A stretch of DNA of 64,000 nucleotides, taken from assembly GCA_022071965.1 (NCBI GenBank), contig JAJVIQ010000001.1:62001-126000 (forward strand), given 5' to 3'. Each line of letters begins with the position of its first letter. The stretch's first letter is position 1. This document shows positions 5,676 to 46,856 of this stretch, one piece after another. The notes under the pieces were generated by a model. That model did no database searches and was not told the DNA's origin. It was given only the letters and a program-made list of their open reading frames with translations. The translations under genes and the position numbers were made by a program. This stretch comes from Gammaproteobacteria bacterium (GTDB lineage Bacteria > Pseudomonadota > Gammaproteobacteria > JAJPIJ01).

Positions 5676-6350
5676 CTATTTCCTGATGGTGCTCGCGCGG
5701 CGCGAGGTGTCGTGTTCACCGGCATATCGGCGCGTGAGCCCCCACACCAGGTGCGCGAAAGCGGTGCGGTGCAGGCATGGCTCGCCGCTCACCACGAGCA
5801 CGAAATGCTGGTTGCCTATGAACAGCGGCCAGAATCCCATGCGGCTGTGACCGGCCGCGTCGACCACGGACCAGGCGGCCGAATCGATACCGAGGTTCTC
5901 GCGGACCAGATCGTCATGGCGCGAGGCCACGACGCCGATGTCCGCGGCCAGGGCGCCCAGCGCCTCGGCGGTCTCGTGGGTGAAGCCGCTGGCGGAGAGG
6001 AAGAATCCCTGCGAATCGGCGAGCAGCGCGCGGCCGTCGACTGCCAGTTCCTTCAGCAGGCCGGGAACGTCGCGTTCCATGTGCGTCTCCGGCGCGGTCT
6101 GCGCGGCGCGCAGCCCCTTGATCCAGCCCACGCTCTGCATCCGGTACAGCAGCTCCGCGGCTTCGTCTTCGTTGTTGGTCTGCGCCCACTGGCAGACCTT
6201 CTCTGCCGACAACGTCGGTGTCAGCGATTGCGCCATCAGCGCGAACAGCAGCGTTCGCGCCGCGGTGGGTTCGCGGCCCGAGGAGGCGTAATAGGCGCCG
6301 GCGGGAGTGACGCCCACGTGGGCGTTGGAAATCAGTTCGTACTCAGACAT
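5676..6350 (-). CDS. Roadblock-like protein with N-terminal helical/winged-helix region
   Basis: The 224-residue protein has two parts. Residues 1-90 are helical (LSAEKVCQWAQTNNEDEAAE then LLYRMQSVGWIKGL), resembling a small winged-helix fold. Residues about 92-210 look like a divergent roadblock domain (ALLADSQGFFLSASGF, HETAEALGALAADIGVVAS, FVLVVSGEPCL). The start overlaps the stop of the upstream kinase-GTPase gene by 8 bp, so translation is probably coupled. With its neighbour it makes two roadblock proteins in one operon, allowing a heterodimer. The domain call is by pattern and is less certain than for the gene at 5282. Confidence 0.65.
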   Translation of the reverse strand: MSEYELISNAHVGVTPAGAYYASSGREPTAARTLLFALMAQSLTPTLSAEKVCQWAQTNNEDEAAELLYRMQSVGWIKGLRAAQTAPETHMERDVPGLLKELAVDGRALLADSQGFFLSASGFTHETAEALGALAADIGVVASRHDDLVRENLGIDSAAWSVVDAAGHSRMGFWPLFIGNQHFVLVVSGEPCLHRTAFAHLVWGLTRRYAGEHDTSRRASTIRK

Positions 6351-7845
6351 GATAGTCCTTTACGCCAGGGTCGATGGAAAAGAGCAATGCCTGTACCAGC
6401 ATCGACACATCACCGCGCCGACGCGCATCGATCTCGAAGATCGGCGCGTTGACCGTGAACCCGCGCTGCCCGCCGCTCAGGTGACGGTGGTAGTCGTCGA
6501 TGTCGGGCTTGCGTGTGGCGCCGGTGAAGTTGACGCCGACGACGACGCGGCTGCGCTGGATCAGCGACTGGAAGGCATTCAGGAAGAAATCCAGATCCTT
6601 CATCGGCTCCTTGCGGGAGTTGTCGACGAGAATCACCAGTCCAAGTGCGCCAGTCTGCAGGATATCCCACATGAAATCGAACCGCTCCTGCCCGGGCGTT
6701 CCGTACAGGTGCACGCGTTCGGAATCCGATAGGCGCATCAGTCCGTAATCCATCGCCACGGTCGTGGTGACCTTGCGGCTGCGGGTCATATCCCGCGCCC
6801 GCGCGTCGGTGTTGACCAGCGGTATGTCGCTGAGCGCCGATATCGCGGTCGTCTTGCCCGCGCCGACCGGTCCGGCGAACACGATCTTGAAGTTGCGGGC
6901 GGCACGCTTCGGAACGTAGGAGAACGTCGTGCTTGCCGTGACGGGCGGTCCCCTGCCTTCGCCGCGCAGGCGGGCGATCACGTCGCCTACTGACTGCGGG
7001 CGGTTCTCGGCGCGGATCTGCATCATCCAGTCGATGATGCGCAGGAAATCATCATGGTACCGGCCGTTGCCCAGCGTGACTGCAGGCACCAGCGGGTCGC
7101 TCTGGTGCTCCTCGGCCGCCCGCTGCCGTTGCGCCGCGTCGACCGGCGGCCCGACGCTGATGCAACGGTATAGCGTGGCGCCCACGGCGTAGAGATCCGA
7201 CCATGGTCCCTGCGGGGCGTCTGGGGAGTGCTGCTCAATCGGGGCGTAGCCGGGCGTGAGCACCTGCACGTCCTCGGAGCTGCTGCTTCCGAACTCCATT
7301 TCCGCGGCCCCGAAATCGATGAGCACCGGTGTGCCGTCATTGCGGATCTGTATGTTCGCGGGCTTGATGTCGCGATGCAGGTATTTCTTTTCGTGGACGA
7401 TGCGCAGCCCTTCCAGCAGGGGCACGAAGATGGCGCGCAACTGCTGTTCGGGGAGTGGCTCCTTTGCCGCGCGCAGCACCTCGCTCAGGCTCTGCCCGCC
7501 CTCGAAGTCCATGACAATGTAAGCGGTGTGGTTGGCCGGGAAGAATCGCGCCACACGCAGGATGTTCGGGTGCCGGAACTGGGCGAGCACCTGCGCCTCC
7601 GCGATGAAGCGCTGCCGGCCCCATTTGTACAGCTCGCTGAATTCCTCCGATTTCAGCAGTACGCTGCCGCTGCCTTTCGAATCGCGGGTGACGAACTCGC
7701 TCGGAAAGAACTCCTTGATGGCCACCGACGTCTGCAAGTGGGTATCCCAGCCCTGGTAGGTGACTCCGAAGTTGCCCTTGCCGAGCACCTTCTCGATTCG
7801 GTATTCCTTCAAGTTGAAACCGACGGGCAGTGCAGAGCCGGTCAT
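6343..7845 (-). CDS. Hanks-type Ser/Thr kinase fused to a COG2229-like small GTPase
   Basis: The 500-residue soluble protein joins two enzymes. Residues 15-295 are a eukaryotic-like kinase with an intact catalytic set: glycine loop LGKGNFGVTY, Lys44 in VAIKE, HRDIKPAN (Asp159, Asn164), DFG at 177-179 and TPGYAPIEQ as the activation/APE segment. Residues 318-495 are a Ras-like GTPase of the MglA/CvnD (COG2229) type: P-loop GPVGAGKTT at 325-333, switch II YGTPGQERF at 381-389. The G4 motif is degraded (VGVNFTGA where NKxD is expected), so guanine specificity is open. It overlaps the roadblock gene downstream by 8 bp. Kinase control of, or by, the attached GTPase is inferred. Confidence 0.9.
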   Translation of the reverse strand: MTGSALPVGFNLKEYRIEKVLGKGNFGVTYQGWDTHLQTSVAIKEFFPSEFVTRDSKGSGSVLLKSEEFSELYKWGRQRFIAEAQVLAQFRHPNILRVARFFPANHTAYIVMDFEGGQSLSEVLRAAKEPLPEQQLRAIFVPLLEGLRIVHEKKYLHRDIKPANIQIRNDGTPVLIDFGAAEMEFGSSSSEDVQVLTPGYAPIEQHSPDAPQGPWSDLYAVGATLYRCISVGPPVDAAQRQRAAEEHQSDPLVPAVTLGNGRYHDDFLRIIDWMMQIRAENRPQSVGDVIARLRGEGRGPPVTASTTFSYVPKRAARNFKIVFAGPVGAGKTTAISALSDIPLVNTDARARDMTRSRKVTTTVAMDYGLMRLSDSERVHLYGTPGQERFDFMWDILQTGALGLVILVDNSRKEPMKDLDFFLNAFQSLIQRSRVVVGVNFTGATRKPDIDDYHRHLSGGQRGFTVNAPIFEIDARRRGDVSMLVQALLFSIDPGVKDYHV

Positions 7846-7866
7846 GGCGAGGTCCGTGGCCGTTTC

Positions 7867-38028: not shown

Positions 38029-38568
38029 CTATGGCTGCTGCAGGGCGGCCTCGTCGGCCTTGATGGGATCGGTCTTGCCGTCGGCATCCTTCTTCGGTGT
38101 GCCGTACTTGGTCGTGTATTCGGCGGCGAGCTTCTCGGCCTCCGCCAACTCCTCCGGCGACAGCTTGCCGTCCAGCGACGTCAGCGCGGTCGGCGCCAGC
38201 TTGCTGCCCAGCTTGTCCGCGACCTTCAACCAGGCATAGGCGTTCTCCAGGTCCTGCGGCACGCCCTGCCCGTCGCGGTAGGCCACACCCAGCCGGTACT
38301 GGGCCGGTGCGATACCTTTTTCCGCGGCAGATCGGTACCACTTGGCGGCCTGCTCGGCGCTCTGATCCACGCCCTGGCCCTTCGCGTACATGTTGCCGAG
38401 GAAATATTGCGCCAGCCCATCGTCCGCGGTTTCGGCGAGCGGGATAAGCTGTTGGGCCGCGGTGCTGTAATCGCCGCGCATGTAGGCGGCCACACCGCTG
38501 TTGAAATCGGCCACGGCCACGGAACACAATGCGACGGTGAATAGCGCAACAGCTACCAGTTTCGTCAT
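38029..38568 (-). CDS. Exported Sel1-repeat protein
   Basis: The 179-residue protein has a signal peptide (cleavage likely after SVAVA) and about three Sel1 repeats (25-130; FLGNMYAKGQGVDQSAEQAA, YRLGVAYRDGQGVPQDLE). A charged C-terminal tail follows, rich in Lys/Asp/Glu. Sel1 repeats mediate protein contacts. It shares the repeat type with the larger SPOR protein at 29464 but lacks a SPOR domain. No operon partner is evident. Confidence 0.85.
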   Translation of the reverse strand: MTKLVAVALFTVALCSVAVADFNSGVAAYMRGDYSTAAQQLIPLAETADDGLAQYFLGNMYAKGQGVDQSAEQAAKWYRSAAEKGIAPAQYRLGVAYRDGQGVPQDLENAYAWLKVADKLGSKLAPTALTSLDGKLSPEELAEAEKLAAEYTTKYGTPKKDADGKTDPIKADEAALQQP

Positions 38569-41337: not shown

Positions 41338-41646
41338 CGACCAGGGACCCGCGCCTGTCGTCGCACCTCGCACCTCCACGGTGCATCGGCTCACCAATTC
41401 ATGGTAGGTCGGCCATTCAAGCGCACCACGTTCGCGGGGCGACGACCGTCGTGGACTCCACGCCGCAGCATGCGTGGCACTGTTATTGAGTTCGCAATTG
41501 TCCCGCCTTTCGCGATCCATTGAGAAACTGTATTGCGCAGGCAGTCGCAGTGACGGCGGCTGACCCTGGCCGATATCGAATCGCGTTGATAACTTCGTCC
41601 GCATGTCAGTGCCGCTCTTCCGATCGCCGACATCTCGCGCACGCGT
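41338..41646. other. Spacer between leuC and the pseudokinase gene
   Basis: This 309-bp stretch has lower GC patches and a short palindrome (ACGACCGTCGT near 41442), but no terminator with a T run and no convincing gene. It may hold a promoter for the kinase-like genes; none is clear. Confidence 0.35.
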
Positions 41647-42540
41647 ATGAACAGGCCGCGTCGCCGCCATCCGGGCGCGCGGGCCGAGGTCGACCCGCCG
41701 CCAGTCGTATACCTTTCATCCGGCCGTCGCCTGGCGAGGTACACCGTGCTGGACGTCGTCCACTACGACGGCTTCGTGGCCACATATTGCGCGCGCCGCG
41801 TGCGGCACGGCAGCAATGTGCTGTTGCGGGAATACTTCCCCGCGGCCTGTGCCGCCAGGAACGACGATGGATCGATCGGGCCGTCGGCCCCGGAGCAGGA
41901 GGCCGAGTATGCGCGTGGACTGGAGCGATTCCTGAAGCTCGCCAGCAGGCTCGCCGGGGTCCGGCACGCCAACGTCGCTGAGGTTGCCGATGTAGTGGCG
42001 CTCAATGGCACGGGCTATCTGGTGACCGCGGAGAGCGGCACGGAAACCGTCGCGCAGCGTTTTGCGGACCGACAGCAAGTCCCGGCGGATGAAGTGCTCG
42101 CCTTGGCACTCGAGCTGTTGGGCGGTCTGGAAATGCTGCACCTCGCCGGAATGGTGCATGGCGATATCGCGGAGGGCAGTGTCCGGTTCAAGCGGGGAGT
42201 TCCGCAGCTCGTTCACTCACCGGCCGCTCTGCTCACCAACTTTCGGAAGATGGCCGTGATCGTGCCATCCATCGATCCGCGGCTCGATCCGGCGACCGCG
42301 GATCCCGACTGCACACAGGATTTGTACGAATTCGGTCTGTTGTTGCATCGCCTGGCGAAAGGCAAGTCCGCGCGCCACGAAACCGTGCTTGACGATCCGC
42401 GCAGCGCCCTGATGCGCGCCGTGCTGCGGGTGATCGAGCGCGCGTTCTCAGGTCCTCGGGAATTCCGGCCGCGCAGTGCCGGGGAATGGCGTCGGGAGTT
42501 CGAGATGATCCGCGAGTTCCCGGGGGCTGAAGCGTCCTAG
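41647..42540 (+). CDS. Pseudokinase of the Hanks Ser/Thr kinase family
   Basis: The 297-residue protein aligns along its length with the kinase encoded next to it but has lost every catalytic signature. The Lys of AIKE is Arg61 (VLLREYFP), HRD is HGD at 171-173, the catalytic-loop Asn is Ser178 (HGDIAEGS), and DFG is HSP at 190-192. The glycine loop is also lost (VVHYDGFVATY). No membrane segment is seen. ATP phosphotransfer is unlikely; a binding or regulatory role towards the neighbouring kinase is inferred. It begins the two-gene insertion between leuC and leuD. Confidence 0.85.
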   Translation: MNRPRRRHPGARAEVDPPPVVYLSSGRRLARYTVLDVVHYDGFVATYCARRVRHGSNVLLREYFPAACAARNDDGSIGPSAPEQEAEYARGLERFLKLASRLAGVRHANVAEVADVVALNGTGYLVTAESGTETVAQRFADRQQVPADEVLALALELLGGLEMLHLAGMVHGDIAEGSVRFKRGVPQLVHSPAALLTNFRKMAVIVPSIDPRLDPATADPDCTQDLYEFGLLLHRLAKGKSARHETVLDDPRSALMRAVLRVIERAFSGPREFRPRSAGEWRREFEMIREFPGAEAS

Positions 42541-42794
42541 GCCGGCACGCGCGGCAGCTTGGGGACGCTGGACACCGCATCGGTATCGGGGCACCGCCGC
42601 AGCGACACGCCGGCGGCATATCTGTGTGTGACCGCCCGCATTCAGCGCATGTAAATCTGGCGGGCGTAAATTCCTCATGGCAGGCTGAAATTTGGATCCT
42701 CGTGCCCAGCACCGCATCCGCCCGATTCGGCTGGGGGTTTGATACGCCGCTGCGCCTCCTTCGGCCAAAGACCAAAGACAGGAGTTTCTATCTC

Positions 42795-45002
42795 GTGAGC
42801 CCCCGCGCCCTGCCTCCCGGTACAACGCTCGGCCGTTATCGGGTCGTGTCCCTGCTCGGGCAGGGACCGTTCGGTCTGACGTACCTGGCCAGCGACCCGG
42901 CGTCCGGCGCAATGTTCGCCATCAAGGAATATCTGCCCGCCGCCTATGCACTGCGAAACCCGGACCGCTCGGTATCCCCGATCTCGGATTTCGAGGAGGA
43001 CGACTTCGAGTTCGGCATGGAGCGCTTCCGCGCCGATGCGCAGGCGCTGCAGCGGACCGTGCATCCATGCCTCGTCGGGGTTCGGGACGTTTTCGATGCC
43101 AATGGCACCGTGTGCATGGTCATGTCCTACGAGGACGGTCCGTCGCTGGCGGAGGTCTCGAACCGCGAGCCGACCCTGACGGAGCGGGAACTGCTGACTA
43201 TCGCCGTGTCGTTGATTGACGCATTCAAGACGCTGCACGGCGCCGGACTCATTCACCGCGACGTCAAGGAGGCGCATATCAAGTTGCGCCGCGACCGTAC
43301 CCCAATCCTGCTTGATTTCGGCGCCGCGCGCATCGGACTGCTTCGACGACGGCTTGCCATCGGAAACGGCGACCCCGGGCTCGATCCATCGAAGCTCGAC
43401 GGCTCGGCCGGTCCATGGACCGACATACACGCGCTGGCAGCCATGCTGTTCAGGATCGCCAAGCGGCTGGGCGCCTCCTGTTCGCCGCGGGTGATTGACG
43501 CCATACGCGCGGGAATCTCGGTGCAGCCGGCGGATGTCGCGCCATTGACGGCGCAATGGTCCGAGCGGATCGACGCGCTGCTGCGGGAGTTGCCCGTCCC
43601 CGAGTGGCCGGCTGCGGCCGCGCCGCCCGAGGGATCATGTGCCGGGCCGGTGCCGGCTGTGCCGGCCCAGGACAGGGGAACCTGCGCCGCAGCCGTAGAT
43701 GCGGATACAGACACCTTCGAAATCCGCGCCCGGCAGGGCGAGGAGGCGCCCGCGCGCGTGGAGGAGGCAGAAACGGCACCCGAGCCGGCCGCACAGCCGT
43801 TTCGAGAGGCGTCAGTGGCGCATGCCGAATCCGCTGCAGCGCAGTCGACTGATTGCGATGGCGCGTACTCGTTCGACCGCAACGATACCGAGACCGCGAG
43901 TGACTTCGCTGAATCCGACGCCATGCCCGAGCCGTCGCGTGCGGAGATTGCGCTCGCGATCGAGCGGCCGCACCTGCCTGGGTGTCCATCCCCGTCCGCC
44001 ACCCATTCCCCCGAACCGATCGAAGGAGCGGGCAAGACGTCGGCGCCGGCCAGCCAGGATACTCTCGCCTCGGCGTCTGCGCGTCTTCCAGATTCGCGAC
44101 CGCAGGCATTCATGGTGCCACGGGCGTCTGCGGCCTCCGCCGATCCCGAGGCGATACTTGACCTGGATCGGCTGACGAGGTGGGTCGCGGCTGCCGCGGT
44201 CGTTGCAGTCGTTTTAGGTATCGTGATGTGGAGCCTGAACGCGCGCACGCCCGTGCCGTCGACCGCGGCGGTTCGGCCTGCACCGCCAGCTGCCCCCACG
44301 ATCGACGCCCCTGGGCGGCCCACCCGCCCGGCGCGTGATACCGTGGTGGCCGCAACGCCGCCGACGGCCGCCCTGGAACAGTCCGCGCCGCGTGACACAT
44401 CGTCGCCCGAGACGCCAGCCTCGACGACCGCCGCCATGACCATTCCGCTGCCGCCGGATTTCCCCGCGGACACCAATGCGGGATCGATCGTCGCGGGCGG
44501 CGCCGCCATGACCATTCCACCGCGGCCAGAACCCCCCGTGAACGCAGAGATTGATGGCCTGTTGGCCGAGGCGGCGAGGGATCTGGCGGCGTTGCGGCTG
44601 ACCACCCCGCGTGGCAGCAACGCGGTGGAGAAATACGAGGCCGTACTCGCACTCGACCCGGGCAATGACGCGGCACGGCAGGGCCTGAATGCCGTGAGCG
44701 ATCGATACGTGGATCTGGCAACCACCGCGCTTGCCCGCGGACAGCTCGCCGCTGCGCGCCGCTATCTGGAGCTTGCTCAGTCGATTGCGCCGGACAATGC
44801 CAAGGCTCAGTCGCTGCATCGTGAACTGGAGCTCCGCCAGCAACAGCCAGCACGCCGGAGCGCGGAGGAGACCGTCGCAGCCGAATGGCGTGGCGGGCTG
44901 TACGATCGGGTGCAGAGCCTCCTCGAGCGCAACCAGGCTCGCCCGCCGCGGCCGCCCAGCCGGGCCGAACAGATCCCGGATCGCCTGGGCGGCCAGCGCT
45001 AG
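42795..45002 (+). CDS. Membrane Hanks-type kinase-like protein with C-terminal TPR-like region
   Basis: The 735-residue protein has a kinase domain at 12-265: glycine loop [10 protein letters not shown], Lys44 in AIKE, HRD at 154-156, DFG at 174-176. But the catalytic-loop Asn is His161 (HRDVKEAH), and the activation segment lacks a TPGYxPPE-type motif, so activity is doubtful. A long Ala/Pro/Glu-rich region precedes one membrane helix (about 463-481). Beyond it lies a Pro/Thr-rich stretch and helices like TPR repeats (about 590-690: [20 protein letters not shown]). The GTG at 42795 has AGGAG about 10 bases upstream. The gap from 42541 to 42794 shows no gene. Confidence 0.87.
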
Positions 45003-45120
45003 GCGTTTCGAATTCGCGCGCCGCGCTTGCAGCGCGGCCCGGCATTCGGTAGAAAGGGAATCCCCGATTCACACGCGCCGTGTCCGCCCGCGACCCGGCG
45101 CTCGGACGCCGGAGCTTCCT

Positions 45121-45771
45121 GTGCAACCCATCAGGCAAATCGAGGGCATCGTCGCGCCCCTGGACCGACCCAACGTAGACACCGATCAGATCATTCCCAA
45201 GCAGTTTCTGAAGTCAATCGGGCGTACCGGCTTCGGGCCCTATCTGTTCGACGAGTGGCGCTATCTCGATCGCGGCGAATGGGGCCAGGACTGCAGCAAG
45301 CGGCCGTTGAACGGGGATTTCGTGCTGAATCAGCCGCGGTACCGCGGCACGCGCGTTCTGCTCGCCCGCGAAAATTTCGGTTGCGGCTCCTCGCGCGAGC
45401 ACGCAGCGTGGGCGATGCTCGACTTCGGCATTCAGTGCGTCATCGCGCCGAGTTTCGCCGACATCTTCTTCAGCAATTGCAGCAAGAACGGCCTCCTGGC
45501 CGTGACGCTGCCGGCAGGGCAGGTCGACAGCCTGTTCAGGGAGGTGTTCGCGCAGCCGCGCTATGTGTTGAAGGTCGATCTCCCGGCGCAAACCGTCACC
45601 ACCCCATCGGGAGTCATGCATGGATTCGAGTTTCCGCCGAGCCTCAAGCACCGGTTGGTCGAAGGGCTCGACGAGATCGGTGTGACGCTGCAGTATGCGG
45701 AGGATATCCGCGCCTACGAGGCGCGCGGCGCCTCGGAGGCGCCGTGGCTGCATCCGCAGACGCCGCCATAG
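45121..45771 (+). CDS. leuD: 3-isopropylmalate dehydratase small subunit
   Basis: The 216-residue swivel-domain subunit pairs with LeuC. Signatures are [47 protein letters not shown] and [15 protein letters not shown]. The start is GTG at 45121; the larger open frame upstream runs antisense-like through the kinase gene and is ignored. It ends 19 bp before the convergent LysR gene. Supply of leuD message may depend on a promoter inside the kinase insertion. Confidence 0.96.
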
Positions 45772-46781: not shown

Positions 46782-46856
46782 TGGTGCGCGGTACTGGGAT
46801 CGAACCAGTGACCCCTGCCGTGTGAAGACAGTGCTCTCCCGCTGAGCTAACCGCGC
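46782..46856 (-). tRNA. tRNA-Val (anticodon CAC)
   Basis: Acceptor GCGCGGT pairs with ACCGCGC; D arm TAGCTCAGCGGG; anticodon loop TTCACAC in the CTGTC/GGCAG stem gives CAC; T loop GGTTCGATCC; discriminator A and encoded CCA; 75 nt. Confidence 0.95.

Follow-up and report, generated by a model that had tools for sequence, protein, structure and literature searches.

Two degenerate kinase genes separate leuC from leuD in one gammaproteobacterial genus

Why do the genes for the two subunits of isopropylmalate isomerase lie 3.8 kb apart in this gammaproteobacterial genome, and do the genes between them have anything to do with leucine? An earlier note on the window (the whole 64,000-nucleotide stretch of DNA analysed here) had placed two same-strand kinase-family genes between leuC and leuD, and that description is accurate: positions 41338-45120 run exactly from the leuC stop to the leuD start, with all four genes on the forward strand (Table 1, where the intervening genes are named K1 and K2). 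Profile searches found a single leuC and a single leuD above curated cut-off in the genome. The K2 reading frame is open from 42624, and the protein of the congener (G001) matches only from about the GTG at 42795; since this GTG is common to both genomes, with a GGAG upstream in each, the K2 start was set there. Downstream of leuD are lysR and gltX, and no mobile gene was identified by Pfam among five flanking genes.

Table 1. Features of the leuC-leuD region (window coordinates), with profile support for genes and conservation in the congener G001 for gaps
Feature	Coordinates	Strand	Support or conservation
leuC, isopropylmalate isomerase large subunit, 467 aa	39934..41337	+	TIGR00170 746.6 bits (cut-off 560.25); Pfam Aconitase 587 bits
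leuC-K1 gap, 309 bp	41338..41646	+	conserved block 41476-41550, 72/75 identical in G001
K1, predicted soluble pseudokinase, 297 aa	41647..42540	+	Pfam Pkinase 20.3 bits (below cut-off 31.7)
K1-K2 gap, 254 bp	42541..42794	+	conserved block 42613-42687, 69/75
K2, degenerate PpkA-type kinase, 735 aa	42795..45002	+	Pkinase 64.1 bits (above cut-off)
K2-leuD gap, 118 bp	45003..45120	+	45015-45109, 91/95 identical in G001
leuD, isopropylmalate isomerase small subunit, 216 aa, GTG start	45121..45771	+	TIGR00171 231.2 bits (cut-off 116.25)

To place this spacing in context, leuD and leuC profiles were searched in the same 143 genomes, this one included. leuD scored above cut-off in 105 (38 were without it), and leuC was found on the same contig and strand in 97 of these, on another contig in seven, and in one was not among the matches listed. 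The gap between the two profile matches had a median of 26 bp (n = 97), and was at most 100 bp in 74 genomes, at most 250 bp in 90 and at most 600 bp in 94, which bears out the premise of the earlier note that the two genes are normally adjacent. Gaps above 1 kb occurred in only three genomes, namely this one (3792 bp), its congener (3720 bp) and the distant genome G100 (3037 bp), so that leuC and leuD do not form the usual adjacent pair either here (3.8 kb apart) or in the congener (3.7 kb). The last of the three (L104 2126-7178) is a separate case, its 3-kb split holding a Fic gene and a DUF488 gene along with two overlapping frames that have no Pfam match; the DUF488 frame closes with a tail resembling that of leuC (KGYLFSTI at the end of both), as though an element had inserted at the 3' end of leuC and duplicated it.

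Gene order was compared in the four genomes sampled from the order: this one, the sole congener sampled, and two other family members (G002 and G003). On contig C4 of the congener the order is leuC-K1-K2-leuD as here, with K1 78% and K2 71% identical, and a K1 scan of a public genome collection returned one record, JAJVHZ010000026.1 (a MAG), which we take to be that contig. Since this order recurs in the congener, and gaps stay within 600 bp in nearly all genomes searched, the split by K1 and K2 is not a matter of chance. Relatives thus divide on the spacing to which the earlier note had pointed, as G002 and G003 share the order Sel1 (reverse strand), ADH, leuC, leuD with this genome minus K1 and K2, an empty site at which the leuD ATG follows the leuC stop by 2 and 11 bp. 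The leuD of G002 is 75% identical to the one here, and 3' of leuD both genomes carry carA, unlike the lysR and gltX found here. The Sel1-repeat gene itself (window 38029-38568, reverse strand), which is strongly constrained (dN/dS 0.04), adjoins ADH-leuC in all four family genomes.

Beyond the family, a 349-genome phylum sample yielded, among the matches listed, no K1 match outside this genome above its own paralogue on contig C27 (133.5 bits, the best other match reaching 91.5), and, at an E-value of 1e-55, nothing for K2 except K2 itself and its own paralogue C13. Because the number of candidates scored per genome was limited (16 for K1 and 7 for K2 in the first search, 6 and 3 in the phylum sample), absence elsewhere means absence at that sensitivity; the same holds for the pair away from leuCD, an occurrence that the earlier note had proposed to look for and that did not appear among the matches listed. 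Among the genomes sampled, a single genus has this arrangement, which is unusual but local, and a real insertion. The simplest reading of these comparisons would be an insertion into a tightly spaced leuCD in the genus ancestor. A recent horizontal acquisition was considered and rejected, as GC3 is close to that of the neighbours (K1 0.78 and K2 0.77 vs. 0.80-0.86), none of the five flanking genes identified is a mobile gene, and no flanking repeat pair of at least 14 nt was found. The arrangement goes unreported in those parts of the literature on leuC/leuD with a kinase, split leuCD, bacterial pseudokinases, and PpkA with a pseudokinase that were available to us.

What the two inserted genes encode was judged against a comparison set of frames matching K1 or K2 in the loci compared; these 81 frames (53 non-identical) left 46 kinases once six subject genes and one near-copy were removed. 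All 46 have the beta3 Lys, the HRD Asp, the Asn of the catalytic loop and, at the APE position, an EQ motif, and 45 have the DFG Asp. K1 departs from this pattern almost throughout (beta3 Lys to Arg, HRD to HGD, Asn to Ser, DFG to HSP, no APE-like EQ motif), so that the HRD Asp alone is kept and the catalytic motifs of an active Hanks-type Ser/Thr kinase are lacking; the altered residues are identical in the congener. An AlphaFold model gives K1 a two-lobed kinase fold (mean pLDDT 78), and we infer a predicted soluble pseudokinase. K2 keeps the beta3 Lys, HRD Asp and DFG Asp in both genomes, and its catalytic-loop Asn is His in both; the activation segment is shortened and has no EQ/APE-like motif, 27 alignment columns are missing from the C-lobe, and the altered residues are again the same in the congener. 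Residual ATP binding or activity of K2 is thus possible, since the Lys, HRD and DFG are kept. Its layout comprises a kinase domain (about aa 1-265), a disordered linker that is poorly conserved in the congener, a hydrophobic membrane helix (about aa 463-481) and a C-terminal TPR-like helical domain (about aa 580-714; TPR models at 24.3 and 20.1 bits, slightly under the Pfam cut-offs), and the same four parts (kinase domain, disordered linker, a single membrane-type helix, helical C-terminal domain) are seen in an AlphaFold model of low confidence (overall pLDDT 58). From this modelled architecture and the lost residues, K2 would be anchored in the membrane, its pseudokinase domain facing the cytosol and its TPR-like domain the periplasm. 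The "kinase/pseudokinase pair" of the earlier note is right as to kinase family, but as K2 too lacks the Asn and the EQ motif, the pair is better described as two degenerate kinases.

Among solved structures, both proteins are closest to the N-terminal kinase domain of PpkA (PDB 5hnv, 5x1r), by sequence and by fold. Searched with its own sequence, K1 matches PpkA at 51 bits (next best 25) and K2 at 113 bits (next best 53); the fold match of K1 is modest (TM 0.64, rmsd 7.3), and PpkA is also first in a profile search whose profile included canonical paralogues. The alignments have in common a stretch past beta3 (KEY(L/M)P / REYFP) and, with K2, GPWTDI as well, whereas PpkA carries HRDISLDN, and EQY within its activation segment, and K1 and K2 have neither that Asn nor that motif. 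By this closest homology among solved kinases, both fit a PpkA-type kinase lineage. A T6SS role is described for PpkA in the available part of one source (PMC3953482); the T6SS sheath gene PF05591, one marker of that system, was found in none of the four family genomes.

A third degenerate kinase, a K1 paralogue, is encoded on contig C27 of this genome (L108 2503-5016), and in the congener on contig C50 (L111). It shares the losses of K1 and goes further (HGQ), such that the catalytic-loop Asn and the EQ/APE-like motif are absent from all three proteins; its long C-terminal part looks coiled-coil by eye and has no strong hydrophobic segment. The gene lies downstream of a pdxH-like gene. K1 is 35% identical to this paralogue and only ~27% identical to K2, figures on which a recent tandem duplication was rejected as the source of the pair. 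In a 52-row tree K1 groups with the paralogue (support 100/98), and the branch parting K1, the paralogue and K2 from the 46 others has support of 98/93, with the bootstrap not fully settled; a reduced tree also unites the three (support 100). When K2 was left out, K1 and the paralogue fell with canonical kinases, in an unstable placement. The three thus probably form one clade in these sequence trees, which may be partly an artefact of long branches, and given those branches and the regrouping without K2 a shared ancestry is likely but falls short of proof. Contig C9 of this genome encodes an STK-TPR paralogue that, aligned with K2 over 742 columns with the C-terminal domain included, is 31% identical to it, and unlike K2 it has canonical catalytic motifs. 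Another kinase belonging broadly to this family, at window 6346-7866 (reverse strand), has canonical motifs and, C-terminally, a GTPase/ATP-binding-like region (Pfam ATP_bind_1, weak Roc); the congener has it too, at a similar distance from leuC.

Described pseudokinases offer some points of comparison, taken here from the available part of one source (PMC12599244). EssB/YukC of the Firmicutes T7SSb is a membrane protein with a cytosolic degraded kinase domain and a short activation loop that acts as a scaffold, and we liken K2 to it solely as an analogy for how such a protein may work; K2 differs in keeping the Lys, HRD and DFG, and EssB belongs to a Firmicutes system. In the DYD family the beta3 residue is Arg and DYD replaces DFG; K1 shares the Arg, but where DFG would be it reads HSP, and it lacks the Asn, and so falls outside that family. 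Partner domains of the CP1 and DLHK families were not found in K1 or K2 by Pfam, and K2 is set apart from the DYD, DLHK and CP1 families by its membrane helix. PADLOC matched kinase-domain models such as PD-T4-6, which we read as generic, and an anti-phage kinase was thus rejected.

Evolutionarily, both genes are maintained. The ratio of non-synonymous to synonymous changes (dN/dS) between this genome and the congener is 0.36 for K1 and 0.41 for K2 (0.28 for the K2 kinase domain), as against 0.18 for leuC, 0.17 for leuD and 0.04 to 0.30 for the five flanking genes measured, and the K1 and K2 frames are intact in both genomes. By these sequence comparisons K1 and K2 are under purifying selection, though over their full length the constraint is looser than in the neighbouring genes. 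Since only two genomes carry the pair, and these are 85-89% identical in DNA across the region, retention is weak evidence on function or coupling.

The earlier note had proposed that shared transcription could couple the pair to leucine synthesis, and the intergenic gaps are where such a proposal can be weighed. In each gap one block is more conserved than the sequence around it or than fourfold sites. With windows chosen as the best of each gap, the conservation of the leuC-K1 block was reached by none of 2000 gap shuffles, that of the K1-K2 block by one, and that of the K2-leuD block by 26, the last because conservation spans nearly the whole gap and the block is not sharply localised; 40-base windows were less striking (48, 3 and 316 of 2000). 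Whole-gap identities are 0.79, 0.72 and 0.92, respectively, the first two gaps being poorly conserved outside their blocks, and fourfold-site identity in the four genes is 0.71-0.86, a level that the K1-K2 block exceeds modestly (uncorrected binomial 0.001). This genome and the congener each have one copy of the block before K1 and one of the block before K2, neither of which was found in G002 or G003. A repeated regulatory motif was rejected, as these two blocks occur once per genome and matches to the leuD block elsewhere are short and weak. An RNA element was rejected as well, for Rfam at E ≤1 returned nothing but a tRNA at 46785-46856, and the blocks fold no more strongly than shuffles (z -0.74 for K2-leuD, 0.80 and 1.41 for the other two). 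The stretch 45015-45109 before leuD is conserved like coding sequence and holds a perfect GC-rich hairpin with no T run.

Separate promoters and terminators, which the earlier note had named as the mark of independent units, did not rise above chance level in the gaps: the promoter scan gave one promoter-like site, on the opposite strand, and the terminator scan three terminator-like sites, the same number as in shuffles. The blocks nevertheless look like control regions placed before K1, K2 and leuD. At 309, 254 and 118 bp the gaps are longer than is usual within an operon, and as each holds a conserved block, independent control fits better than one operon; separate transcription of K1, K2 and leuD is favoured, not proven. 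Coupling by shared transcription found no positive support, and the gaps hint at separate control.

Could a single transcript from the leuC promoter nonetheless run through K1 and K2 into leuD, with the pair made when leucine is short, LeuD supplied by read-through over 3.8 kb, and leucine synthesis thereby coupled to signalling? All four genes do share a strand, and terminator-like sites between them do not exceed chance; both genomes of the genus have the arrangement intact; and since the genome has no other leuC or leuD above cut-off, this leuD has to be expressed in some way. Yet the long gaps with a conserved non-coding block in each speak against one transcript, as do the two overlapping terminator-like sites at 41458-41478 in the leuC-K1 gap (at chance frequency, and with one stem pair changed in the congener), and relatives that lack the pair have an ordinary leuCD. 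Pfam and TIGR profile searches found no domain tying K1 or K2 to leucine, which again argues against such coupling, and we consider the single transcript unlikely. A variant in which a non-catalytic heteromeric pair, soluble and membrane-bound with a periplasmic TPR sensor, had been recruited into the leuCD transcript, so that pair output or the LeuC:LeuD balance would track leucine demand, seems to us highly improbable.

Eukaryotic kinase/pseudokinase pairs offer an analogy for another possibility, that K2 is an active, unusual kinase and K1 its pseudokinase regulator or substrate. The retained Lys, HRD and DFG and the tighter constraint on the K2 kinase domain than on the whole protein would agree with activity, but the Asn is His, the activation segment is short and without the EQ/APE-like motif (all 46 comparison kinases have both the Asn and the motif), and part of the C-lobe is missing, which makes an active K2 quite doubtful. 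The neutral insertion entertained by the earlier note, with a decaying pair on its way out and its place within leuCD meaningless, would sit well with presence in one genus only among the matches listed, with the lost catalytic residues and poorly conserved K2 linker, and with whole-gene dN/dS values above those of leuC, leuD and the five flanking genes; intact frames, dN/dS well under 1 and the same altered residues in both genomes disfavour it, and we rate it very unlikely.

We lean, at slightly better than even confidence, towards an insertion in the genus ancestor of a degenerate pseudokinase pair that was kept by selection, is separately controlled, and serves as a membrane/soluble scaffold or sensor unrelated to leucine. 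As the comparison of genomes suggests, a 3.8-kb segment with two genes of one degenerate PpkA-type lineage would have entered an almost touching leuC/leuD, and both genes would then have been kept under purifying selection. K2 would sit at the membrane, its pseudokinase domain in the cytosol and its TPR-like domain in the periplasm, with K1 soluble; the two may work without phosphotransfer, as a scaffold or sensor pair in which K2 probably recruits K1 or another client to the membrane. A control region of its own would lie upstream of each of K1, K2 and leuD, and the pair would be functionally unconnected to leucine synthesis.

The locus provides a clean natural case in which an almost touching gene pair for one enzyme was split with both halves kept, and for which the empty site survives in the sister genus. 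K2, and then K1 with the third paralogue, are genus-specific degenerate kinases with graded losses, useful for the question of how a kinase becomes a scaffold. Were coupling to leucine true, leucine synthesis would be controlled in a new way, and recruitment into the leuCD transcript, if true, would mean that pseudokinases connect the state of the envelope with the synthesis of branched-chain amino acids.
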